Below the pieces are notes generated by a model. The model saw only the letters and a program-made list of their open reading frames with translations, made no database searches and was not told where the DNA came from. From contig NZ_CP028858.1 in assembly GCF_003058365.1 (NCBI RefSeq), forward strand, positions 1,426,001 to 1,490,000: 64,000 nt of DNA, written 5' to 3'. The position numbers were made by a program, and so were the translations under genes. Of this stretch, positions 12,637-50,850 are shown piece by piece (within the stretch, counting starts at the first letter, position 1; the number at the start of each line of letters is the position of its first letter). Source of the DNA: Halococcoides cellulosivorans. Lineage in GTDB: Archaea; Halobacteriota; Halobacteria; Halobacteriales; Haloarculaceae.

Positions 12637-14112
12637 TCACTCGTCGTCGCGAATCAGATCACGGATCGCAGCGCGGTCGACCGTCCCCGACGCCGTTCGG
12701 GGAATCGTCTGCACGACGGTCCACGTTTTCGGCCGTGCGGGTGCGCGAAGGTGCTCGCGAGCGTACGCATCGAGAGTCGCCGTCGCACTGTCCGGGAGGG
12801 CAGCGTCGTCCGTGACGACCGCCGCGCCGACGCGCTCGCCCCACCGATCGTCCGGAATACCGACGACGGCGACCGCCTCGACGGCCGGGTGTTCGCCGAC
12901 GACACGCTCGACGGCGTGCGGATCGATCGTCTCACCGCCGGAGACGATGCGGTCGTCGAGTCGACCCGCGACGAACAGAAATCCGTCCTCGATCGATCCC
13001 AGATCACCCGTTCGCAGCCCCGCCGCCGACCACTCGCCCGACTCGTCACAGTAGCCCGGCGTGACGCTCGGCCCGTCGACGACGATCTCACCCGTCACGC
13101 CAGAATCGACCGCCGCACCCGTCTCGGGATCGCGAATCGTGACATTCACCCCGTCGAGCGGGCGGCCCACGGTGTCGATCCGATCGTGGAGGTCGTCGGG
13201 CGTCGCGATCGCGACCCCCGAGGCCGTCTCGGTCGTGCCGTAGGTCGGCCAGAGCGGGACGCCCCGATCGAGCGCGTGCCGGCGGAGGGCGGTCGGCACG
13301 GGCGCGCCCCCGACGAGCACGGCCGACAACGCATCGGGGGGCGACCACCCCGCGTCCAGCAGCGCCGACAGCTGTGTGGGGACGAGAGAGACGCCCGTGA
13401 GCGAGTGGTCAGCGAGCAGCGCTCCGATCCGCTCGGGATCGGGCGGGCGCTCGACGACGGCGGTCGTCCCCAGCCCGATCGCTCGAACGATCGGCATGAA
13501 CCCGCCCATGTGGTGGACGGGAAGCGGGTCGAGCCAGCACTCGGCGGCCGATCCCAACCGGTCGGCCCAGCCACCCACGCTCGCGGCGAGCGTTCGAACC
13601 GCGAGTCGCACGCCACGGGGCCGCCCGGTCGTCCCGGACGTAAAGGCGACGACGGCCTCGCGCTCGGCCGCCCAGTCGGTGGGCGGGACGGAAGCAGACG
13701 GGGTGCCGTCCCCGAGCGCCGCAACGTCGATCAGGCGCGTATCGAGATCGCGATCGGCCGGTGATTCGACGACGACTGCGGCGGGGTCGGACACGTCCAG
13801 ACACTGCTGGACCGTCCGATCGGGCGCTCCGGGGTCGAGCAAGACGGCGCTCGCGCCAACCCGCCAGATCGCCCCGAGGACGGCGACGAAATCAGCGCGA
13901 TCCTCGACACAGACCCCGATCCGAGGGCCCTGAGCGTCTGGATCGGCCCCACGGTGGTCCCGGAGTCCCACCGCCCACGTTTCGACGCGCCGATCGAGCG
14001 CCTCGAAGGTGACGCTGTCGTCGCTCGCGGGCCAGCGGATCGCAGTCCGATCGGGGGAAACGGCCGCCTGGCGTGCGATCGGATCGCACTCGCCCGGGTC
14101 GACGGCCGTCAC
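12637..14112 (-). CDS. menE: o-Succinylbenzoate-CoA ligase (MenE-like, AMP-binding)
   Basis: A 491-residue ANL-superfamily adenylating enzyme, expected to activate o-succinylbenzoate to its CoA thioester in menaquinone biosynthesis. The P-loop-like motif VVAFTSGTTGRPRGV is at about 154-168; YGTTE and the hinge-region motif TGDLGSIEDGF follow. In the C-terminal lobe the usual SGK motif, whose Lys serves adenylation, reads SGTVDR, with Thr at about 477. The start overlaps the menC stop by 4 nt. The menE assignment rests on linkage to menC and menA. Confidence 0.85.
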   Translation of the reverse strand: MTAVDPGECDPIARQAAVSPDRTAIRWPASDDSVTFEALDRRVETWAVGLRDHRGADPDAQGPRIGVCVEDRADFVAVLGAIWRVGASAVLLDPGAPDRTVQQCLDVSDPAAVVVESPADRDLDTRLIDVAALGDGTPSASVPPTDWAAEREAVVAFTSGTTGRPRGVRLAVRTLAASVGGWADRLGSAAECWLDPLPVHHMGGFMPIVRAIGLGTTAVVERPPDPERIGALLADHSLTGVSLVPTQLSALLDAGWSPPDALSAVLVGGAPVPTALRRHALDRGVPLWPTYGTTETASGVAIATPDDLHDRIDTVGRPLDGVNVTIRDPETGAAVDSGVTGEIVVDGPSVTPGYCDESGEWSAAGLRTGDLGSIEDGFLFVAGRLDDRIVSGGETIDPHAVERVVGEHPAVEAVAVVGIPDDRWGERVGAAVVTDDAALPDSATATLDAYAREHLRAPARPKTWTVVQTIPRTASGTVDRAAIRDLIRDDE

Positions 14113-15137
14113 GCAGAGACCGCCTCGATTCCGAGCCCGGGCCGATCCGGCAGCGTCAACTGGCCGTCCGCGATCGTCGCGGGATCCGGTGCCAGATCGC
14201 GCTCCAGTCGATCACCGGTCGCGAGCCCCGACGGCGCGACGGCGGGCAGACTCGCCGCGAGATGGGCCGCGGCGGTGCGGGCGAGAACGGCGTCGACGGT
14301 CGTCGAGACGACGACATCGAGGCCGGCGTCGATCGCGCCGCGTGCGACCGTTCGCGTGCGTTCGAGGCCGCCGAGCGCCATGGGCTTGCAGACGAACGCG
14401 TCGGCCAGATCGACGAGCGCGAGCGGATCGCTCGCCTGGACGACCGACTCGTCGAGGGCGATCGACACGCCGGTCTCGGTACGCAACTGCCGGAGCGCAG
14501 CGTGGGCCCCCGCGCCGACCGGCTGTTCGATCAGATCCAGCGCGTCGGCCTCGGGCGTGGAGAGCACTGCGCTCGCGAATGCGGGTGACCAGGCCCCGTT
14601 GGCGTCAATCCGGACGGCGACCGCGTCGGGGACGGCCGCTGCCACCCGGGCGATCCGCTCGCGCTCGACGGCTGGATCGTCGGCTCCCGCCTTGCACTTG
14701 ACCGCGGGAAAGCCCTGTTCGGCGGCCGCTCGCGCGCGCTCGGCAGTCTCTTCTGGAGAGAATCGACCGATCGTCGCGTTCAGCGGCACCGCTCCGCCCG
14801 ACCCCCCGAGCGTCGCCCACAGCGGTTCCTCGTGCAAGCGCGCCTTGGCGTCCAGGGCCGCACACTCGACGCCGTGGCGGGCCGCGGGACGCGCGATCGG
14901 GTCGAGACGATCGACCGCGCGTTCGAGGCCGTGCCGCGCGGCGTTCTCGCGGGCCTCACCGAGGGCGTGCTCGGTCGCTGCGAGCGGTTCGGTCCAGCCA
15001 GCGAGTGGGGTCGCCTCGCCGATACCGGTCGTTCCCTCGTGGGTGACGGTGACGACCCACCCGTCGCGGTCCGCGATCGTCCCGTCGGCGGTCGCCAGCG
15101 GTGCGTCGAGTGGCAGGGAGAATCGCTCGATCTCCAC
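14109..15137 (-). CDS. menC: o-Succinylbenzoate synthase (MenC-like)
   Basis: A 342-residue enolase-superfamily enzyme that dehydrates SHCHC to o-succinylbenzoate. A capping domain is followed by a barrel with the acid/base Lys motif AVKCKAG, metal ligands in VRIDANG, LIEQPVG and ALDESV, and the second Lys in VCKPMALGG. The start is GTG at 15137, directly after the menA TGA with no gap, so the genes are probably co-translated. N-acylamino-acid racemases share this fold, but linkage to menE and menA favours MenC. Confidence 0.88.
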   Translation of the reverse strand: MEIERFSLPLDAPLATADGTIADRDGWVVTVTHEGTTGIGEATPLAGWTEPLAATEHALGEARENAARHGLERAVDRLDPIARPAARHGVECAALDAKARLHEEPLWATLGGSGGAVPLNATIGRFSPEETAERARAAAEQGFPAVKCKAGADDPAVERERIARVAAAVPDAVAVRIDANGAWSPAFASAVLSTPEADALDLIEQPVGAGAHAALRQLRTETGVSIALDESVVQASDPLALVDLADAFVCKPMALGGLERTRTVARGAIDAGLDVVVSTTVDAVLARTAAAHLAASLPAVAPSGLATGDRLERDLAPDPATIADGQLTLPDRPGLGIEAVSA

Positions 15138-16097
15138 TCAGACCACCACCGGGAGTGCGAGGCCGACCGCGAACGTGATCGCGTGGACGACGGTCAACTG
15201 GCCGGTGCGTTCGAGAGCATCGTTGAGCCGTTCGCCCGATTCTCGGCGGACCGTCCGGACGAGAAGGGCCGCGCCCGGCAGCGTCACCAGTGGCAGCGCC
15301 ACCGCGAGTGTCACCCCGTCGACGGCGTCGAGGGCGCCGGCGATCGCGAGACCGAGCGGGACGAGATAGGCGACGGCGACGAGCGCGACGTACTCAACCC
15401 GGGCCCAGTCGTCGCCCAGCCGAACCGCGAGCGTGATCTTACCCGCCGCGCGGTCGTCTGCGCGATCGCGAACGTTGTTGACCACGAGAATCGCCGTCGC
15501 GAGCGCCGCCATCGGGAGACTCGCGACGATCGCGAGCGTGCTGATCGACCCGGGCGGTGGCGCGATCGGGAATTGGGCGCCGGCGATGGCCGCCGCCTGA
15601 ACGTAGTACGTTCCCACGACGGCGAAGACACCGAAATAGAGAAAGACGAAGACGTCTCCGAGCCCGTAGTAGCCGTATGGGTAGGGTCCGCCGGTGTAGA
15701 GGATTCCCGCGGCGATCCCCGAGAGGCCGACGAGTACGATCGGGACGCCGCCGACGAAAACGAGATACAGGCCGACGACGACCGCGAGCGCGTAGGTGAT
15801 GGCCATCGCCGTGGCGACCTGCCGGGGTTCGATGAGGCCGCCTGCTGTAACACGAGTAAAGCCCTCGCGATCGGGGTCGTCGACGCCGTGGCGCGCGTCG
15901 AAGTAGTCGTTCGCGAAGTTCGTCCCGATCTGGATGAGCAGCGCGCCGACGAGCGCCGCGATCGCGGGGCCGATGGCGACGACACCCTCGACGACGGCGA
16001 CCGCCCACCCGACGACGACGGGCGCGGCCCCCGCCGGAAGCGTCTGTGGCCGGGCGGCCATGAGCCAGGCGCGCCCGACCGACGGAGTCTCGGACAT
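15138..16097 (-). CDS. menA: 1,4-Dihydroxy-2-naphthoate polyprenyltransferase (MenA)
   Basis: An integral-membrane UbiA-family prenyltransferase of 319 residues that attaches the isoprenoid tail to dihydroxynaphthoate in menaquinone synthesis. The first Asp-rich motif is [12 protein letters not shown] and the second NNVRDRADD; both bind the Mg-diphosphate. About eight or nine hydrophobic segments are present. The start is set at ATG 16097 (MSETPSV), immediately before the conserved ARPQTLPA entry; a longer in-frame extension lacks family resemblance. It leads the menA-menC-menE operon, 88 bp from divergent aroA. Confidence 0.92.
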
Positions 16098-16185
16098 ACC
16101 CGCGCTCGGAGGGCCACCCCCACAAGCGTACCGCTCGGGGACGCCACCGACACCCCTAATTGTCGGCCACACCGACTCGGCGAGC

Positions 16186-17478
16186 ATGGACGTTACACTC
16201 ACGCCCGCGACCGTCACGGGCCAGGCACGCGCACCCCCCTCGAAGAGCTACACGCATCGTGCGATCCTCGCGGCGGGCTACGGAGGCGGAACGGCGACCG
16301 TGCACAATCCGCTCGTCAGCGCGGACACCCGGGCCACGATGGCCGCCGTCGAGGCCTTCGGGGGACGGGTCGAGCGCGGCGACGACGCCGTGACGATCAC
16401 CGGGTTCGACGGCCGGCCCGACGTACCCGACCGGATCGTGAACTGCGAGAACAGCGGAACGACGATGCGCCTGACGACCGCGACGGCCGCACTCGCAGAC
16501 GGCCTCGTCGTCCTCACGGGTGACGAATCGCTGCGCTCGCGCCCGCAGGGCCCGCTGCTCGACGCGATCGAACAACTCGGCGGGCGGGCCGAGAGCACGC
16601 GCGCGAACGGGCAGGCCCCGCTCGTGGTCGGCGGGCCGATCGACGGCGGGCGCGCGGCGATCCCCGGCGACGTCTCCTCGCAGTTCATCTCCGCGCTGTT
16701 GATGGCCGGCGCGGTCACGCCCGACGGCCTCACGGTCGATCTGGAGACCGCACTCAAGTCCGCCCCGTACGTCGAGATCACACTGGACGTGCTCGACGCG
16801 TTCGGCGTCGCAGCCAGCGGCGAGGGCCGGGAGTGGTCGGCCCCTGGCGGGCAAACCTACGCCGCCAGCGACGGCGAGTATCGCGTGCCGGGCGACTTCT
16901 CGTCGATGTCGTATCTGTTGAGCGCGGGCGCACTCGCCGCGCCCGAGGGCCTCCGCGTCGTCGGGGCGGAACCGAGCGCCCAGGGCGACGTGGCGATCGT
17001 CGAGCACCTCCAGGCGATGGGCGCACCCTTGCGCTGGGATCGCGAGGCGGGGACGATCGACGTGGAGCGTGGCGCGCTGGAGGGGATCGAGGCGAGCGTC
17101 GCGGACACGCCCGACCTGCTCCCGACGCTCGCGGCCGTCGGGGCCGCCGCCGACGGCACGACGCGGATCGTCGACTGCGAGCACGTCCGGTACAAGGAGA
17201 CCGACCGCGTGTCGGCGATGGCCGACGAACTGGGCCGGATGGGCGCGTCGGTCACCGAACACGACGACGAACTGCTGGTCCACGGGTCGGAGACCGATCT
17301 GGAAGGGGCGCGCGTCGACGGGCGTGGCGACCACCGCATCGTGATGGCGCTCGCACTCGCGGGCCTGGTCGCCGACGGCGAGACGACGATCGAAGGCGCC
17401 GAACACGTCGACGTCTCCTTCCCCGGATTCTTCGAGACGATGGCCGAGTTGGGCGTGGACGTCGTGCGCTCCGATTGA
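16186..17478 (+). CDS. aroA: 3-Phosphoshikimate 1-carboxyvinyltransferase (EPSP synthase)
   Basis: A 430-residue cytosolic enzyme that joins PEP to shikimate-3-phosphate in aromatic amino-acid synthesis. Recognised by [19 protein letters not shown] at the N-terminus, [11 protein letters not shown] (substrate-binding loop), [28 protein letters not shown] and [13 protein letters not shown]. The start at ATG 16186 gives the usual family length; upstream in-frame sequence overlaps menA and is unrelated. The pathway partner aroE is in the same window (53.7 kb). Chorismate is also the precursor for the adjacent menaquinone genes. Confidence 0.95.
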
Positions 17479-17480
17479 CC

Positions 17481-18266
17481 TCAGAGGAGCACACGACCGG
17501 CGATCAGCACGAAAAAGACGGCGTTCGAGGCGGCGTGAACGACGATCGGGACGGTCAACGTTCCGGTGCGCTCGTAGGCCACGCCGAACACGACCGAGGT
17601 CAGCCCGATCATACTCGCCCCGAGGAGGGCGACGAGTGGTGATCCCGGCGCCACCGTGAGGTGCAACGGGACGAAGAGGAGGCTCGCACCACCGATCGCA
17701 CCGACCGGGCCGGTGACGGTCCGCAATCGCCCCTGGATCGCGCCACGAAAGAGCAGTTCTTCGACGATGGGCGCGAGCACCGCCCCCACGATCGCGAGCA
17801 CCGCGTACACCACGGGAGCGGCCCGGACGAGATCCGCCCCGTAGGCCGTCGTTTCGGGGTCGAGTTCCCCGAGGACCGCGCGCTGGGCGGCGCCAAGCGC
17901 CGTCGCGAGGACCACCGCCCCGACGATCACGCCGGCCTCACGACGGCTGGGCCAGTCGATCGAGACGGACGGCCCTGCGGAGCGAAGATATCCTCCAGCG
18001 ACGAGCGCGAATGCGACCACTTCACCGGCGGCCATCGCGAGGGCCGTGAGAACCATCGCCTCGGACTCGGCGCCACCCCAGATCAGCGCGGCACGGATCG
18101 TCGCGCCGACGACCACCATCGCGATCATCGCGACCACGAACAGCGCGAGAACCGTCAGCACTGCTCGCAGGCGATCGTTCGAGGACGCCAACCGCTCGAC
18201 ACCGAGGGGAATCGACATGTCTCGCGAGTCGGCCACGAGACCGGTAATCGTGTCGATTCGACCCAC
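17481..18266 (-). CDS. CPBP family intramembrane metalloprotease
   Basis: A 261-residue, about eight-helix membrane protein of the CAAX-protease/bacteriocin-processing (Abi) family. The motif EELLFRGAIQGRLR carries the paired Glu and Arg of the active site, with a downstream His in FVPLHLT. The real substrate is unknown. It converges on aroA with a 2-bp gap. An alternative start at ATG 18218 (MSIPLG) is plausible because the first 16 residues look atypical. A second member of the family lies at 20661, beyond three plus-strand membrane genes. Confidence 0.85.
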   Translation of the reverse strand: MGRIDTITGLVADSRDMSIPLGVERLASSNDRLRAVLTVLALFVVAMIAMVVVGATIRAALIWGGAESEAMVLTALAMAAGEVVAFALVAGGYLRSAGPSVSIDWPSRREAGVIVGAVVLATALGAAQRAVLGELDPETTAYGADLVRAAPVVYAVLAIVGAVLAPIVEELLFRGAIQGRLRTVTGPVGAIGGASLLFVPLHLTVAPGSPLVALLGASMIGLTSVVFGVAYERTGTLTVPIVVHAASNAVFFVLIAGRVLL

Positions 18267-18340
18267 AGTCGTCGAACGGTCCGCCGTCGATCGACCCGCA
18301 CCCCGACGACCGAGTACGGGACCGTCGGGAGAGCCCGACC

Positions 18341-19000
18341 GTGGCAGGGCGAATCGAGGACGTTTATTTGACTGCCCGACCAGGATCCGTCGTGCAGCGT
18401 TCAGCGACCGACAGAGGTGGGATCGTCCGATCGACCCGACGGAACGCGCTGGTCGCGTGGCTCCTGGTGGGAATCATCGCCGTGATCGCTGCGGGCAGTC
18501 TCGTTGCGGGCGACCCGCTCTGGGCCGGGTTCGCGGCGACGGTCGCGGTCCTCGCGGCGGTCCCCGCGATCGTCACCCGTGAGCCCACGGCGATGATCCC
18601 CGCGGAGGTGATCGCCGTCGCCGCGCTCCCGGTCCTCGGGCGATCACTCGGCGTCGATGCGACGCTGACGGCCGTCGCGACCTACCTCTCGGTCGCGGCC
18701 GTCGCGCTGATCGTCGCGGTCGAACTCCACGCGTTCACTCGCGTCGAGATGAACGTCGCGTTCGCCATGCTGTTCGTCGTGGTGACGACGCTCGCGGTCG
18801 CCGGCTGGTGGGCCGTCGCCCGGTGGCTCTCGGATCTCTATCTGGGCACGGCGTTGCTCGGCGATCCCGCCCTGTCGGCGGACGCCCACGAAGCGGCGCT
18901 GATGTGGGAGTTCGTCGCGTCGGCCCTCGCCGGCCTCGTCGCTGGTCTCCTCTTCGTCCCGTATCTCGGATCGCGATGGTCCCGAGGTGATCGGCAATGA
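18341..19000 (+). CDS. Hypothetical multi-pass membrane protein
   Basis: A 219-residue protein with about six hydrophobic helices (AWLLVGIIAVIAAGSLVAG, ALIVAVELHAF, VAFAMLFVVVTTLAVAGWW, FVASALAGLVAGLLFVPYL). I do not recognise a named family; similar unnamed proteins are common in haloarchaea. The C-terminus (GSRWSRGDRQ) is basic. The stop overlaps the next gene's ATG by 4 nt, so the two are coupled and may form a complex. Divergent from the CPBP protease gene across 74 bp. Confidence 0.75.
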   Translation: MAGRIEDVYLTARPGSVVQRSATDRGGIVRSTRRNALVAWLLVGIIAVIAAGSLVAGDPLWAGFAATVAVLAAVPAIVTREPTAMIPAEVIAVAALPVLGRSLGVDATLTAVATYLSVAAVALIVAVELHAFTRVEMNVAFAMLFVVVTTLAVAGWWAVARWLSDLYLGTALLGDPALSADAHEAALMWEFVASALAGLVAGLLFVPYLGSRWSRGDRQ

Positions 19001-19656
19001 GACCCGACTGGCTCAGACTCTCGGCCGACCAGCAGCGCCGGTTGACCTGGCTCATGCAGGTCGTGATGGTCGGCCTCCTCTTTGTCGGCCTCGAACGCGG
19101 ATCGGTCGCGATCGTCGTCAACGTCGCGATCGGCCTCGCCGTCATCCAGATCCCCTCCGTACTCGAACGCGACCCGTCGGTCGCGATGGACCCCCGACTG
19201 ACGCTGTGGATCACGACCGCAGTGTTCTTGCACTCGGTGGGCGCGGTCGGTCTCCCCGGTGGGAGCGGGCTGTACAAATCGGTCCCGTACTGGGATTCGA
19301 TCACGCACACGCTCTCCTCGTCGATCGTCGCCGCGGTGGGGTACGCGACGACGCGAGCGATCGACGAACACACCGATCGCGTTCGACTTCCGGACCGGTT
19401 CGTCTTCGTGTTCGTCCTGTTGTTCGTCATGGCGTTCGGCGTCGCCTGGGAGGTCATGGAGTTCACGACCAGTCGGGCGGCGACCGCGCTCGGTGGGGCG
19501 CCCGTGTTGACCCAGTACGGCATCGACGACACGATGACCGACCTCCTGTTCAACACTGCCGGCGCGCTGATCGTCGCCGCGCTCGGGTCGGTGTACGCGA
19601 TCGACGAGTTGGGCCTTCAGTCGATCGTCGAGTCGCTGCTCGATCGGGTGAGTTGA
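18997..19656 (+). CDS. YjdF/DUF2238-like membrane protein
   Basis: A 219-residue protein with about six membrane helices. The motif YWDSITHTLSSSIVAAVGY, the segment FGVAWEVMEF and the later DDTMTDLLFNTAGALI resemble the conserved D-x-x-x-H, W-E-x-x-E and D-T-x-x-D-x-x-x-N features of the YjdF/DUF2238 family, whose function is not established. It overlaps the preceding membrane gene by ATGA and is followed 39 bp later by a metal-dependent hydrolase-type membrane gene. Confidence 0.75.
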   Translation: MRPDWLRLSADQQRRLTWLMQVVMVGLLFVGLERGSVAIVVNVAIGLAVIQIPSVLERDPSVAMDPRLTLWITTAVFLHSVGAVGLPGGSGLYKSVPYWDSITHTLSSSIVAAVGYATTRAIDEHTDRVRLPDRFVFVFVLLFVMAFGVAWEVMEFTTSRAATALGGAPVLTQYGIDDTMTDLLFNTAGALIVAALGSVYAIDELGLQSIVESLLDRVS

Positions 19657-19695
19657 GGACGGCGGTCTCAAGTGGATCCAGGGTGAAAATCGACC

Positions 19696-20649
19696 GTGTT
19701 CGTCGGCCACGCGTTCCTCGCGTTCGGGGTGATCGCTCTTCTGGCGGCCAGACTCGGGGACCGCGTCGGCGTCGACCCAGAGCGTCGGGTCAGCCTCGTG
19801 GGGCGATCGATCTGCGTCGCGATCGCGCTGGGCATCGTCGCCGCACTCGCGGCGTCGCTGCCCGACCTCGACGTGTTGCAGGCGGTCGCCGTGGTCGCGA
19901 TCGGTCACACCGAGGGTCCGCTGATCGATCAGTTGCGGGCGGCCTCGCGGGCGACGCACCGACTGACCACTCACTCGCTGGTACTGGCCACGCCGATCGC
20001 CGCGGGGATCGCCCTCTGGACGCGTCAGCGCTGGCTCGGGAGTGTCGCCTTGCTCGGTCTCGTCGTGGCTGTCGCGCTGGCGAGTGGGGCCGTCGCGGCC
20101 GCCGTCCTCGGCGCAGTGGTGATCGGAGCCGCCGGGATCGGAAGGCTCGCCGCCCGGTGGGCTCTCGACGCTCGCGCGACGGGAGCGGCCGCGTTCGTGG
20201 GCCTCGCGATCCACCCATTCACCGATCTGTTCACCGGGACGCCACCCGCGATCGCCGCGCCGCTCGGTCTGACCGTCCTCGACGCGCGGATCGCGCCGTT
20301 CGTCGACCCGTTCGCGAACCTCCTGCTCGCGACCGGCGCGGAACTCGTCGCGATCTGGGTCGGTGTCGGCGTCGCCGCGTGGCTCTCCGAGCGCTCGGTG
20401 CGCGATCTGATCCACCCGGTCGCGGTCGTCGGGATCGGATTCGCACCGGTCCGGGCCGTCCTCGACACGCCGAGTGTGGACGACGCCGTTCCCTTCGTCG
20501 CGACGCTTCTCGTGGTCGGACTGATCGGAACTGTGGCGGTCGAACTGGTCGACCGCCGCTCCACGGGTGTCGTCCGGCCGCTCTGTACCGGGCTGGCGAC
20601 GATCACGGTCGGCACGGTCGCCGCCGCGCTCGCGATGGCGATTCTCTGA
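19696..20649 (+). CDS. YdjM/DUF457-like membrane-bound metal-dependent hydrolase family protein
   Basis: A 317-residue polytopic protein starting at GTG 19696. His and Asp residues are arranged as in the YdjM/DUF457 family: VGHAFLAF at the N-terminus, SLPDLDVL, HRLTTHSLVL and HPFTDLFTGTPP. These are the expected metal ligands near or within the membrane. The family is annotated as putative hydrolases (some phospholipase-like), but the substrate is unknown. It is co-directional with the two membrane genes upstream and converges on the second CPBP protease gene with an 11-bp gap. Confidence 0.8.
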   Translation: MFVGHAFLAFGVIALLAARLGDRVGVDPERRVSLVGRSICVAIALGIVAALAASLPDLDVLQAVAVVAIGHTEGPLIDQLRAASRATHRLTTHSLVLATPIAAGIALWTRQRWLGSVALLGLVVAVALASGAVAAAVLGAVVIGAAGIGRLAARWALDARATGAAAFVGLAIHPFTDLFTGTPPAIAAPLGLTVLDARIAPFVDPFANLLLATGAELVAIWVGVGVAAWLSERSVRDLIHPVAVVGIGFAPVRAVLDTPSVDDAVPFVATLLVVGLIGTVAVELVDRRSTGVVRPLCTGLATITVGTVAAALAMAIL

Positions 20650-20660
20650 GGGTCTGTCGC

Positions 20661-21407
20661 TCAGACCACGACGAGCACGACCCCGAGCATCGAGACGATC
20701 GCGGGGGCCACGAAGCGAACGACGATCGAGGGGCCCAGCACACCAGTCCGCTCGTAGGCGACACCAGCGATCGCGGATTCGAGGAGCACACCCGCCACGG
20801 CCCAGAGGACGGCGGGACTGAATCTGCCAGTGACGACGACCACGAACACCGCGTGCAGGATCGCCGTCAGCCCGATCGCGACGGGTGCCCCGAGCACCCC
20901 GAGTCGGCGCTGTATCGCCGCCCGAAAGAGGGTCTCCTCCCCGACCCTCCGCCCACAGAACGCGAGAATGCCGATCAGGGTGAGCACGATCGACTGCCAG
21001 AGCGGAAGAGCGCCGAACGCCCCGACCACGGCCGACGACGGCCGATTCATCGCCGACACCACCGTACTGGCGACGGCCACGGCCGTGACGACGAGCAGTG
21101 CGATCGCCCCCACGACGACGAGTGCCCGGTCGTGATCGGGCCACCGAACCTGCGGTCGGTGACTGTCGACCGACAGCACCGCCGCCCCGACCGCTCCAGT
21201 GACCACGAGAACGATCCAATCGGTGATCTGGACGTACCTGAGTGCCAGACGACCGATCGACTCCACCCACGACGTGTACATCAGCCTGATCCCCGCGAAC
21301 ACGAGCACCGACGCCAGCGCCGCGATGGCGACGGCCTCGACGACGGCCCACCCGCGCTCGCCGAGCATCGATCCGACGGGATGGGTCGGTGCCTGCCGTT
21401 GGTCCAT
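20661..21407 (-). CDS. CPBP family intramembrane metalloprotease (second copy)
   Basis: A 248-residue, multi-helix CPBP-type protein. The active-site motif is GEETLFRAAIQRRLG, with the later conserved His in ILHAVFVV. The start is taken at ATG 21407 (MDQRQAPT), since the 43 residues encoded upstream look non-membrane and poorly organised. It differs clearly in sequence from the copy at 17481, so the two are not a recent duplication. Both face inward toward the three plus-strand membrane genes. Confidence 0.8.
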   Translation of the reverse strand: MDQRQAPTHPVGSMLGERGWAVVEAVAIAALASVLVFAGIRLMYTSWVESIGRLALRYVQITDWIVLVVTGAVGAAVLSVDSHRPQVRWPDHDRALVVVGAIALLVVTAVAVASTVVSAMNRPSSAVVGAFGALPLWQSIVLTLIGILAFCGRRVGEETLFRAAIQRRLGVLGAPVAIGLTAILHAVFVVVVTGRFSPAVLWAVAGVLLESAIAGVAYERTGVLGPSIVVRFVAPAIVSMLGVVLVVV

Positions 21408-21557: not shown

Positions 21558-22835
21558 CTACGCGAGTTCTTCGATGTTCGCGACGATTTCGTCGGCGTAC
21601 TCCTCGGTGCCCAGCTTCTCGGCGCCCTCCAACTGGCGTTCGAGGTCGTAGGTGACCTTGCCCGACGAAATCGTCGCCTCGACGGCGTCACGCACGAGAT
21701 CCGCGGCCTCCGTCCAGCCCATGTAATCGAACATCAGACGGCCCGAGAGGATCATCGCGGTCGGGTTGGCCATGTTCTGGCCGGCGCGTTTGGGCGCGGA
21801 GCCGTGGACCGGCTCGGCGAGCACGCGGGCGTCACCGAAGTTCGCCCCGGGCGCGATGCCGAGGCCACCGATCTGAGCCCCGGCGGCGTCCGAGAGATAG
21901 TCGCCGTTGAGGTTCGGCATCGCGAGCACGTCGAACTCGTCGGTCCGGAGTTGCATCCACTGGAGCATGGCGTCCGCGAGGCGCTCTTCGACCATGACGG
22001 CGTCCTCGGGGATGTCGACTTCGTCCTGGGTCTCCCACAGCGAGTCGGGCGCGGCGAAGACCTCCTCGTCGTCGTACTCCTCGTCGGCCACCTCCATGCC
22101 CCACTCACCGAACTGCCCCTCGGTGAACTTCATGATGTTGCCCTTGTGGACGAGCGTGACCTTGTCGCGGTCGTGCTCGATGGCGTAGTCGATGGCCTTC
22201 CGGACGAGTCGTTTCGAGCCGAACTCCGTGATCGGCTTGATGCCGATGCCGATCGGGCCGTCGTGCATCATGTCGTCGTAGCCCATCTCCTCCTCGACGA
22301 ACGCGCGGACCTGCTCGACGTCGTCGGTGCCGGCCTCCCACTCGATGCCGGCGTACACGTCCTCGGTGTTCTCCCTGAAGGTCACCATGTCCATCTCTTC
22401 GGGCGCTTTCATCGGTGACGGGACGCCGTCGAGATAGTAGGTCGGGCGGACGTTCGCGTAGAAATCCAGCGTCTGCCGGAGCGCGACGTTCAGCGACCGG
22501 AAGCCCGCGCCGACGGGCGTCGTCAGCGGGCCCTTGATCGCGACGCGGAACTCGTCGATCGCGTTGACGGTGTCCTCGGGCAGGTTCTCGTCGTACCGTT
22601 CGCGACCCGACTCGCCAGCGTAGACGCGCATCCAGGCGATCTCACGACCCGTCGCCTCGGCGGCGGCGTCCAAGACTTTCTGGGCGGCCGGACCGACGTC
22701 TGTCCCGATCCCGTCCCCGTGGATGATCGGGACGATCGGATTCTCGGGAATGTCGAGTTCGTCTGCATCTTCGTCGACGACAGTCACCGGTTCGCCCGAA
22801 TCGGGCACCGATACCTGATCGTAATCGTATCCCAT
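21558..22835 (-). CDS. icd: NADP-dependent isocitrate dehydrogenase
   Basis: A 425-residue TCA-cycle enzyme converting isocitrate to 2-oxoglutarate. Typical features are IPIIHGDGIGTD-like IVPIIHGDGIGTDVGP at the N-terminus, the substrate motif FRSLNVALRQTLD, TFRENTEDVYAG, the Lys/Asp residues around LVHKGNIMKFTEG, the metal-binding MPNLNGDYLSDAAGAQIGG, and the cofactor region EPVHGSAPKRAGQNMANPTA. The length matches prokaryotic NADP-type Icd. The gene stands alone, 77 bp downstream of cdc48 on the same strand. Confidence 0.96.
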   Translation of the reverse strand: MGYDYDQVSVPDSGEPVTVVDEDADELDIPENPIVPIIHGDGIGTDVGPAAQKVLDAAAEATGREIAWMRVYAGESGRERYDENLPEDTVNAIDEFRVAIKGPLTTPVGAGFRSLNVALRQTLDFYANVRPTYYLDGVPSPMKAPEEMDMVTFRENTEDVYAGIEWEAGTDDVEQVRAFVEEEMGYDDMMHDGPIGIGIKPITEFGSKRLVRKAIDYAIEHDRDKVTLVHKGNIMKFTEGQFGEWGMEVADEEYDDEEVFAAPDSLWETQDEVDIPEDAVMVEERLADAMLQWMQLRTDEFDVLAMPNLNGDYLSDAAGAQIGGLGIAPGANFGDARVLAEPVHGSAPKRAGQNMANPTAMILSGRLMFDYMGWTEAADLVRDAVEATISSGKVTYDLERQLEGAEKLGTEEYADEIVANIEELA

Positions 22836-47588: not shown

Positions 47589-48188
47589 TTACAGTTCGAC
47601 GGACTCTTTGCCAGACAGCGAGTCCGGGACGTTCAGCGTGACGGTCGTCTGCCCACCGGAGCGGGTGTTGACCTGCATGGTGACGGTGTCACCGCTGTCG
47701 AGGTTAGAGAGACCCGACTGATTCAGGTCGACCGTGACGATCGCCCGGTCGACCGGGTCGTTCAGCGTCTGATCGTCGAGGATCGATCCGTCGTTGTCAC
47801 GGAGGGTCGTCCAGCTAAACGTCGCGAACGACGGCGAACTGATCTGATCGGAGACCAGTTGCGTACTCCCGCTGGCCGTAATCCACTGGATCGTCGTGTC
47901 GTTGAGGTTCACGTCGGCCGACCCCGGTGCGAGGCGAACGGTCATGTTGGCCTCGTTGATCTGGCCACTATTCACGTTCCCGACCGTACTCACTTCGACG
48001 AGTCGGTTGGTGACCTGCTCGGCGGCCTGCTGGCCACTCTGTTCGGCACTACTCTGGAGGAATCCAGCCGTGTTGATCAATACGCCCGCTGCGATCGCCG
48101 CGACCAGCACCATCGCGATGAACACGATGAGTGTGCCGATCCCGACCTGACCGCGGTCGTCGGTATCCGTTGTGATTCGTTCGAACAT
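47589..48188 (-). CDS. arlB: Archaellin (copy 1)
   Basis: A 199-residue structural subunit of the archaellum filament. A class III signal peptide precedes the prepilin-peptidase site ([10 protein letters not shown]), followed by a hydrophobic N-terminal helix ([19 protein letters not shown]) that packs in the filament core. The rest is a Ser/Thr/Asn/Asp-rich beta domain. About 90% identical to the upstream copy by eye, with an identical C-terminus and differences confined to the middle. It has its own upstream element at 48248. arlCDE-J genes are not adjacent. Confidence 0.93.
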
Positions 48189-48336: not shown

Positions 48337-48936
48337 CTACAGTTCGACGGACTCCTTGCCGGACAGCGAGTCCGGGACGTTCAGCGTGACGGTCGTCTGC
48401 CCACCGGAGCGGGTGTTGACCTGTAGCGTCACGGTGTTGCCGCTGTCGAGGTAGTTGAGTTCCGCCTGGCTCAGGTCGATCGTGATGATCGCCCGGTCGA
48501 CGGGGTCGTTGAGGGTGTTGTCGTCGGTGATAGACCCGTCGTTGTCACGGAGCGTCGTCCAGTTGAACGTCGCGAACGACGTCCCGCTGACCTGGTCAGA
48601 GACCAGTTGCGTACTCCCGCTGGCCGTGATCCACTGCATCGTCGTGTCGTTGAGGTTCACGTCGGCCGACCCCGGCGCGAGCCGGACGGTCATGTTGGCT
48701 TCGACGATCTGTGAACCATTCACCTCGCCGACCGTGCTCACTTCGACGAGTCGGTTGGTGACCTGCTCGGCGGCCTGCTGGCCACTCTGTTCGGCACTAC
48801 TCTGGAGGAATCCAGCCGTGTTGATCAGTACGCCCGCTGCGATCGCCGCGACCAGCACCATCGCGATGAACACGATCAGCGTGCCAATCCCGACCTGTCC
48901 GCGGTCGTCCGTATCCGTTGTGATTCGTTCGAACAT
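48337..48936 (-). CDS. arlB: Archaellin (copy 2)
   Basis: A 199-residue archaellin, same length as copy 1 and sharing the processing site and first 69 residues. Differences cluster between residues 70 and 170 (for example GNVNSGQIN against GEVNGSQIV). The final 30 or so residues are identical again. ATG 48936 (MFERITT) is used; the upstream in-frame codons are leader. It lies 148 bp upstream of copy 1 and 200 bp after the next gene. Either both form the filament or one is a variant, as in multi-archaellin haloarchaea. Confidence 0.93.
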
Positions 48937-48999
48937 GGGTACTCGTCCGGACGAACCGGACGTTACCTCAGAGTAGTCGAACATTCTACTTAACCGATT

Positions 49000-49499: not shown

Positions 49500-49835
49500 T
49501 CAGCTCTCGGAGAGGGTGCGCCAGGCCTCGTCGAGTTTGTTCGCGACCTCCGAGCGTTCTTCGACGACGATCGACAGCGAGTCGTCGAAGTCGACACGGA
49601 CCTCGTCGACGTTCCGCCGGTACACCTTGATCCGGCGACGGTCCTCGGAGAGCACGCTGTCGTGGAGTTCGAGGAGATTGTGGTCCGTGAGTTCGTCGAT
49701 CCGGCGGTACGTGGTCGCGATCGGAATGTCGAGTTCGTCGCTCAGGTCCTGGGCCGATCGCGGTTCGTCGGTGGCATCAAGGATCTCCGCACTGTACTTG
49801 TTCCCCAGAGTCCGAAGAAGATCGACCGAGGCCAT
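49500..49835 (-). CDS. Winged helix-turn-helix transcriptional regulator (ArsR-like)
   Basis: A 111-residue DNA-binding protein. The winged HTH covers about residues 5-75: LGNKYSAEILDATDEPRSAQ, LSDELDIPIATTYRRIDEL (recognition helix) and a wing (DRRRIKVYRRN). The last 30 residues are an amphipathic helix, probably for dimerisation. Placement between archaellins and a KaiC-like ATPase suggests a motility or adhesion regulator; the target is not visible. The single-domain form fits haloarchaeal ArsR-like proteins. Confidence 0.82.
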   Translation of the reverse strand: MASVDLLRTLGNKYSAEILDATDEPRSAQDLSDELDIPIATTYRRIDELTDHNLLELHDSVLSEDRRRIKVYRRNVDEVRVDFDDSLSIVVEERSEVANKLDEAWRTLSES

Positions 49836-50001: not shown

Positions 50002-50727
50002 TCAGAGCGGGTATTCGTCCTCGTTCATCATCGAGAACGCACTGGCGTTCTTGTGGACCTTGATGCCGCCCTGTTCGATCTCGATCGGGAAGATGTCGGT
50101 ATCGATTTTCTGCTTGCGCATCTTCGCGACCCAGACGTACCGATTGACCCCAGACTCGGTCGGCGTCTGGAGCAAGTAGATGTTGCCGTCGGTCAGGTAG
50201 TTCTCCAGGCCGATATCCGATTTGGGGAACACCGCGCCCTGCTCGTTGGTCATCAACGTGGTCAGCCCGTTCTCTTTGAGGATATCGGTGAATTTGAGGA
50301 GGTAGGTCCGGCGTTCTTTCTCGTCGTCGAAAAAGAGCTCGAACATCGCGAGCGAGTCCAGCACGACACGCTCGAATTCACTGTCCTTGCAGTCGTCGAG
50401 GATCAGATCGAGAGAGGTCGAGAACTCGTTGTCGCTGAGCAGTTCACGCTTGTCGTAGATCCTGATCTGGTCGGAATCGACGTATTCGGCCCAGCGGTCC
50501 AGCCCGATCGACTCGGCGGCCTCGCGCAAGTCCTCCTGGTTTTCCTCGAACGAGAGGAAGATGCCCTTCTCGTCGAACTGGTCGACACCGTTGTAGATGA
50601 ACTGGAGCCCGAAAATCGTCTTCCCGGCCCCGGGGTTTCCGCTGACGAGCGTCGTCGAGTTCTTCACGATGCCCCCGTTGAGAATCGAATCGAGACCGTC
50701 GATACCGGTTTTGGTGAGTTCGATCAT
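50002..50727 (-). CDS. KaiC/RAD55-like RecA-fold ATPase
   Basis: A 241-residue single-domain KaiC-like protein. Walker A is VSGNPGAGKTIFGLQF (about residues 27-42). FLSFEENQEDLREAA follows, and VVLDSLAMFELFF is Walker B. It begins TKTGIDGLDSILNGGI, the normal start for this family (ATG 50727). Single-domain KaiC-like ATPases include ArlH, which gates archaellum assembly, and signal-transduction proteins. The closeness to archaellin genes makes a motility role plausible, but other arl genes are absent. Confidence 0.82.
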   Translation of the reverse strand: MIELTKTGIDGLDSILNGGIVKNSTTLVSGNPGAGKTIFGLQFIYNGVDQFDEKGIFLSFEENQEDLREAAESIGLDRWAEYVDSDQIRIYDKRELLSDNEFSTSLDLILDDCKDSEFERVVLDSLAMFELFFDDEKERRTYLLKFTDILKENGLTTLMTNEQGAVFPKSDIGLENYLTDGNIYLLQTPTESGVNRYVWVAKMRKQKIDTDIFPIEIEQGGIKVHKNASAFSMMNEDEYPL

Positions 50728-50850
50728 CTGTGTGTGGGTTCCTTGTCTCGAAAATCTTATCCGAGTGGTCAAAAAACCTTGTTCCTCGATCGGGGGCGAT
50801 CCACCGCCATCGCCGGGACGTTTATCTTCATCTCTCCGCTACGTGGTCAC

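Follow-up and report, generated by a model that had tools for sequence, protein, structure and literature searches.

The genes described here lie in a 64,000-nucleotide stretch of the Halococcoides cellulosivorans genome (contig NZ_CP028858.1, positions 1,426,001 to 1,490,000 of the forward strand). This whole stretch is called the window, and all positions below are counted from its first letter. Between aroA, which ends at 17478, and icd, which starts at 21558 on the minus strand, it carries five consecutive genes of membrane-protein families, here named A to E, as a sequence-only reading of this DNA had reported. Our analysis narrows the block to its three central, plus-strand genes, a unit widespread in archaea: C, a predicted enzyme of the DUF2238/Wok family, B, a diverged and apparently inactive homologue of C, and D, a YdjM-family membrane protein.

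Gene B occupies 18392..19000 on the plus strand. Its most likely start is the GTG at 18392, since 53 of 58 aligned B proteins have a methionine in that column; the open reading frame (ORF) can be extended to a GTG at 18341. A TATA-like TTTATTT was read in the sequence at 18363..18369 (plus strand), its centre 26 nt upstream of the likely start, and we infer that it serves as a leaderless-type promoter element of B. B and C (18997..19656, plus strand) overlap by four nucleotides, the ATGA at 18997-19000, which bears out the overlap described earlier. D follows at 19696..20649 on the same strand, and the intergenic distances between B, C, D and E are -4, 39 and 11 nt. In a hydropathy scan of B, C and D, six, five and ten membrane segments were found, respectively; a sixth helix of C, missed by the scan, appears in the structure model discussed below.

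Gene C and its homologue B

The lipocone superfamily was defined by Burroughs, Nicastro and Aravind (2025, PMC12419801), and statements about it here refer to the sections of that article available to us. DUF2238 partly covers the proteins of its Wok family, in which two extra N-terminal helices are followed by a four-helix core. The lipocone site consists of a His in core helix H2, a Glu in H3 and an Asp in H4, and an additional acidic residue lies close to where H3 ends. A conical fold and a linker 'handle' between H3 and H4 are further marks of these proteins. Lipocones act at the outer leaflet and are predicted to exchange or remove phosphate-linked lipid head groups (PMC12419801). Both the assignment of DUF2238 to the lipocones and this predicted chemistry are taken from that work.

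In the genome search, C together with neighbouring stretches scored 27.1 bits against DUF2238, and the C profile matches DUF2238 members that score above the Pfam cut-off (L124-L128). As the Pfam DUF2238 search, with matches in 38 of 196 genomes of the phylum, misses genomes that bear C genes (G036, G044, G052 and G055), our own profiles were used. Eight residues of C, namely H79, D100, H104, W151, E152, E155, D178 and D182, are invariant in 72 of 72 aligned proteins, and the window's C is 33-67% identical to the C paralogues that carry them. Seven of the eight were found in all 30 C matches at DUF2238 loci, a set that includes the window's own and three counted already, and H79 in 27 of them; for the 16 DUF2238-locus matches without B the corresponding numbers are 16 of 16 and 15 of 16.

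An AlphaFold2 model of a natural B-C fusion protein, L087 (model m3c4bffc44e53; predicted local distance difference test score (pLDDT) 84, predicted template modelling score (pTM) 0.82), shows two halves of six main helices each, with a break in the second helix of the C half. In this predicted structure of a relative, the C half has two N-terminal helices ahead of a four-helix core, the order described for Wok proteins. D326 and H330 lie in the fourth main helix, E378 and E381 in the fifth and D404 and D408 in the sixth, a placement that matches the His(H2)-Glu(H3)-Asp(H4) site of the lipocones (PMC12419801). The lysine and arginine residues in the loops are weakly compatible with an active site on the outside. 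C thus resembles the Wok family, as presented in the sections consulted, in its six main helices, in the His, Glu and Asp in H2, H3 and H4 and in its DUF2238 coverage, and by coverage, active-site residues and helix order it is predicted to be a Wok-family lipocone.

No match to B was found in Pfam or NCBIfam. In a profile-profile comparison with hhalign, 57 B and 71 C proteins from the fetched loci, each 180-260 aa long, aligned over 193 columns with a probability of 95-96 and E-values of 9e-9 to 2e-8. As controls, B or C was compared seven times with the YdjM set and with three neighbour families, judged to be MscS-, LysE- and UspA-like by reading their sequences, which gave probabilities of 0.1-0.3. 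A HMMER profile of B also matches C proteins (L081 with 6e-5, L072 with 8e-4). Most of the invariant C residues are altered in B: H79 corresponds to R101, E152 to A158, E155 to R161 and D178 to A186, and D100 and H104 have no counterpart. W151 is retained as W157, and D182 stays acidic as E190. Judged by these positions, B is a degenerate Wok homologue that lacks most of the active site and is not an active member of the family.

The joining of an active to an inactive copy is also described for the cpCone duplications and for VanZ-i (PMC12419801). In those cases, from other lipocone families, the duplication lies inside one protein, whereas the presumed inactive copy described here is of the Wok type, is usually encoded by a separate gene and occurs in fusions of both orders.

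Recurrence of the B-C pair and of its YdjM-type neighbours

For the comparison of gene order, 40 stretches around relatives of C were fetched, 37 of them ca. 16 kb long, which together with the window gave 41 neighbourhoods. A wider set of 83 distinct C loci comprises 79 fetched loci, the window and three named genomes. Many of its stretches reach only ca. 2 kb to each side, and the counts of YdjM-type genes over the 83 loci are therefore lower bounds. A search of contigs with C, from which very near records were possibly omitted, returned three loci of named species, none of them recognised as belonging to the window's genus.

In 39 of the 41 neighbourhoods, the window included, the gene immediately upstream of C on its strand is B; the two exceptions are L066, where both are fused, and L069, where C occurs without B. 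Over the wider set, B adjoins or is fused to C in 69 of 83 loci. Nine uninterrupted fusion frames were found in 79 distinct loci, six in the order B-C (L076, L083, L087, L096, L103 and L105) and three in the order C-B (L066, L081 and L094). The pair is not confined to the window's order, as four stretches from outside it, with a guanine-cytosine (GC) content of 0.39-0.41, also carry it (L128, L140, L147 and L150). A tree of 82 C domains, whose bootstrap is not fully settled, joins the window with L031 and L032 (100/99). All 66 rows of one starred branch have B; solo C genes and C-B fusions belong to rows outside it.

Two other arrangements were seen around C genes. L141 (GC content 0.40, outside the window's order) has two C-type matches ca. 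830 bases apart on one strand and no B match, possibly a pair of active copies. In 22 of the 41 neighbourhoods, for example L038, L046 and L056, a 66-aa gene occurs that appears dodecin-like by eye; in 16 of these it is the next gene after C in the same orientation, and it is absent from the window's neighbourhood.

The near-constancy of the pair may also be read in another way, namely that B and C form a heteromeric lipid scramblase, transporter or sensor in which the conserved residues of C hold a metal or a head group without catalysis; B would then have lost its site because the pair binds lipids and moves or senses them. That each half of the fusion model forms a six-helix bundle, that B is a non-catalytic homologue and stands in a nearly strict pair, and that PMC12419801 contains a section on lipocones in signalling systems are in agreement with such a role. 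The invariance of eight residues across C paralogues of 33-67% identity is, however, typical of catalysis, and 14 of the 83 C loci manage without B. We regard this explanation as unlikely, and favour C as an enzyme with B as its non-catalytic partner.

Gene D scores 40.9 bits against PF04307 (cut-off 29), which upholds its earlier assignment to the YdjM family. Nine residues, H5, D57, D59, H88, R89, H93, H173, D177 and E216, are invariant in 28 aligned proteins and include the H/D/H/H/D series that D shares with other PF04307 proteins; the structure model of D (m09910034eae5) has a pLDDT of 90. From these conserved histidines and aspartates, and from the annotation as hydrolase, which we take to be the usual one for the family, D is predicted to be a metal hydrolase. 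D is not matched by the profile of PF00882, the zinc-dependent phospholipase C-like family. That profile has a single hit in the genome, which is below threshold (11.3 bits, E 0.4) and falls on another YdjM gene (C1:2112026), just a hint of a zinc phospholipase C identity for D. In the block studied here D neighbours a gene for a DUF2238 protein. YdjM proteins have, to our knowledge, no known function, and we know of no report of Escherichia coli YdjM working with a DUF2238 protein.

D was labelled in 28 of the 41 neighbourhoods: 23 have it in the second position upstream of C, four (the window among them) immediately downstream and one farther away, and in 27 it directly adjoins B-C. Another YdjM-like protein, here called Ds and ca. 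200-216 aa long, is encoded at 19 distinct loci, either divergently from C or in tandem with it, and has the motifs TH, PDxD, HRxTLH and HxxxD. Three examples lie under the PF04307 cut-off of 29 with 22.8, 24.7 and 27.6 bits (E 7e-5 to 2e-6). D and Ds are only distantly related, as the Ds profile aligns to D over just 40 columns with a probability of 24%. D or Ds is within reach in 49 of the 83 C loci, which divide into B-C (32), B-C with D (30), B-C with Ds (7), C with Ds (12) and C alone (2); hence 12 of the 14 C loci without B carry Ds. In 20 genomes with 144 PF04307 matches and 40 C loci, a PF04307 match lies within 3 kb of C at 17 loci, where 0.59 would be expected from gene density. The support for the linkage rests more on its varied arrangements, with D upstream or downstream and Ds divergent or in tandem. 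No match to the D or Ds profiles or to a home-made YdjM motif pattern was found in the ca. 1.5-kb flanks of the 16 B-less C matches at DUF2238 loci; the linkage is thus seen only in loci of the haloarchaeal order.

The same association would arise if D were unrelated to B-C in function and had been kept beside it by descent, as part of a frozen ancestral neighbourhood. A wider gene order around D-B-C is indeed common, with seven recurring neighbour families at 17-22 loci each, and the D-carrying loci cluster in the C tree. Yet D also occurs downstream of C, at four of 28 loci, it adjoins B-C even where those neighbour families are missing (the window, L031 and L032), and a different YdjM-like gene, divergent or in tandem, accompanies solo C genes. 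These observations make a purely inherited neighbourhood improbable, somewhat more so than the scramblase, transporter or sensor, and we keep to D as a hydrolase in the same lipid pathway as C.

The flanking CPBP genes and other features of the window

Gene A (17481-18266, minus strand) and gene E (20661..21407, minus strand) both exceed the PF02517 cut-off of 22.4, with 66.6 and 30.6 bits, and thus belong to the CPBP/Rce1-like proteases by score, as the sequence-only reading had stated. Its view that the two proteins are unrelated does not hold: in a pairwise comparison they share 33% identity over 157 aa (E 8e-11). Of what we take to be the CPBP motif set, EExxxR, H and HxxxN, A has EELLFR and HAASN intact. 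E keeps EETLFR and has RFVAP at the final HxxxN position, so that it lacks the last motif. E is also nearly an orphan, with matches in only two of 58 genomes, its own, where A is the second match, and one other.

Neither gene travels with B-C-D. Among the 40 fetched neighbourhoods, A-like genes occur in three, at distances of 2.3 to 6.2 kb and with no order in common, and E-like genes in none. Six relatives have aroA, icd and B-C-D at least 79 kb apart or on separate contigs, with no A or E homologue found in flanks of 1.5 kb around aroA and icd, and the block from aroA to icd is absent from all six; the genome sets searched included no second genome of the genus Halococcoides. Lack of conservation of the neighbourhood in related genomes had been set as the refutation of the five-gene set, and only B-C-D recurs. 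On these grounds we reject the five-gene island as a unit, and A and E are bystanders outside the conserved one. An envelope or peptide-processing set with both CPBP proteases as integral parts is therefore very improbable, even though two of the genome's six PF02517 matches flank B-C-D. Small ORFs for peptide substrates had also been envisaged; the search for them covered the gaps between the block genes, and gaps of this size leave no space for one within B-C-D-E. Of the substrates proposed for the set, a lipid fits B-C-D, and no support was found for peptide processing or self-immunity. A plausible but wrong five-gene grouping is thereby corrected to B-C-D.

The region left of the block (12637-17478) holds minus-strand genes of the menE, menC and menA types (AMP-binding, MenC and UbiA), head to head with aroA. 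Farther along the window, two very similar proteins, archaellin-type by eye, are encoded in tandem on the minus strand (47589-48188 and 48337-48984), adjoining a stretch of lower GC content (0.57-0.60 at 48-51 kb). An ORF at 50002-50772 (minus strand) has the ATPase motif GNPGAGKT and appears RecA/KaiC-like by eye; beside it lies a short, possibly regulatory ORF (49500-49835).

A putative lipid head-group pathway

We propose, with a probability of about 0.6, that B-C-D encodes an active/inactive lipocone heteropair and a YdjM hydrolase that together act at the outer leaflet to remodel lipid head groups. The operon would act as a functional unit. C would be a six-helix enzyme with a His in core helix H2, a Glu pair in H3 and an Asp pair in H4 at the outer face, exchanging or removing phosphate-linked head groups of archaeal membrane lipids. 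B, a diverged duplicate that appears to have lost nearly all of the site, would be its partner, probably in a heterodimer, where it may bind a second lipid or stabilise or regulate C. D may act on the same lipid as C or on its product. The conservation in C, the loss of the site in B, the linkage to YdjM-type genes and the published Wok chemistry lead us to this division of roles; the heterodimer, its orientation towards the outer leaflet, the substrate and the joint action with D are our inference.

Several results weigh against this proposal. In the protein scan C is borderline for DUF2238, with 25.7 bits at a cut-off of 26.4, and the B-C match is weaker when the window's orthologues alone are compared (probability 35, E 4e-4; in global mode 55 and 1.7e-5). 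A profile search of PDB sequences returned no relative, with nothing below E 0.9. Foldseek gave no PDB match above noise, the best E-values being 0.12 for the fusion and 1.3 for D at TM-scores of ca. 0.1-0.2. VIA-align matched the fusion best to a designed repeat protein (Z 8.8, root-mean-square deviation (rmsd) 3.5, 105 aligned residues) and reached Z 6.1 for D (rmsd 4.5, 129 aligned), both of them values that the tool describes as common among helical bundles, and no lipocone or phospholipase entry was among the matches listed in the PDB fold search. As no fold match was obtained, the case for a lipocone fold of C, with its conical shape and H3-H4 'handle', is based on the published assignment and on residue conservation. 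The linkage to D is likewise not obligatory, as many C loci lack a YdjM gene: 34 of 83 have none in reach, at 23 of 40 no PF04307 match lies within 3 kb, and of the 144 such matches in the 20 genomes only 17 are close to a C gene. The binomial value of 5e-21 for the linkage is not a true probability and overstates independence, since the loci are related by descent. Finally, C is not needed as the sole candidate for a cardiolipin synthase, because the genome has PLDc_2 genes.

Cardiolipin synthesis has been proposed for some Wok members, and Wok genes beside phosphoesterases have been reported, a linkage that the C locus resembles (PMC12419801). Such a synthesis by C is possible and not required, the PLD-type genes being kept in this genome. 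A replacement of a PLD-type cardiolipin synthase by C was considered and is unsupported, with PLDc_2 matches in 18 of 20 genomes, its own included.

Unlike the arrangement described here, the Wok family as presented in the available sections of PMC12419801 includes no inactive Wok partner, haloarchaeal pair or YdjM protein. The terms 'ydjm', 'haloarchaea' and 'duf457' do not occur in its main text, the part to which this count applies. Neither the B partner nor the YdjM linkage was found described in these sections or in the literature searched, where no search paired both names.

More broadly, though with less than even confidence, we suggest that haloarchaea and some further archaea of this phylum may use a lipid enzyme encoded by two genes, for an active and an inactive lipocone copy, with several paralogous pairs in many genomes and a coupling to YdjM hydrolases. 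This would represent an uncharted form of lipid head-group remodelling and give YdjM proteins a function. If this is true, B, whose family is unnamed in the libraries used, YdjM and the archaeal Wok proteins would each gain a testable function. The lipocone superfamily would gain an active/inactive pair, encoded by separate or fused genes across haloarchaea, and the finding would point to genes for the head-group chemistry of archaeal lipids.

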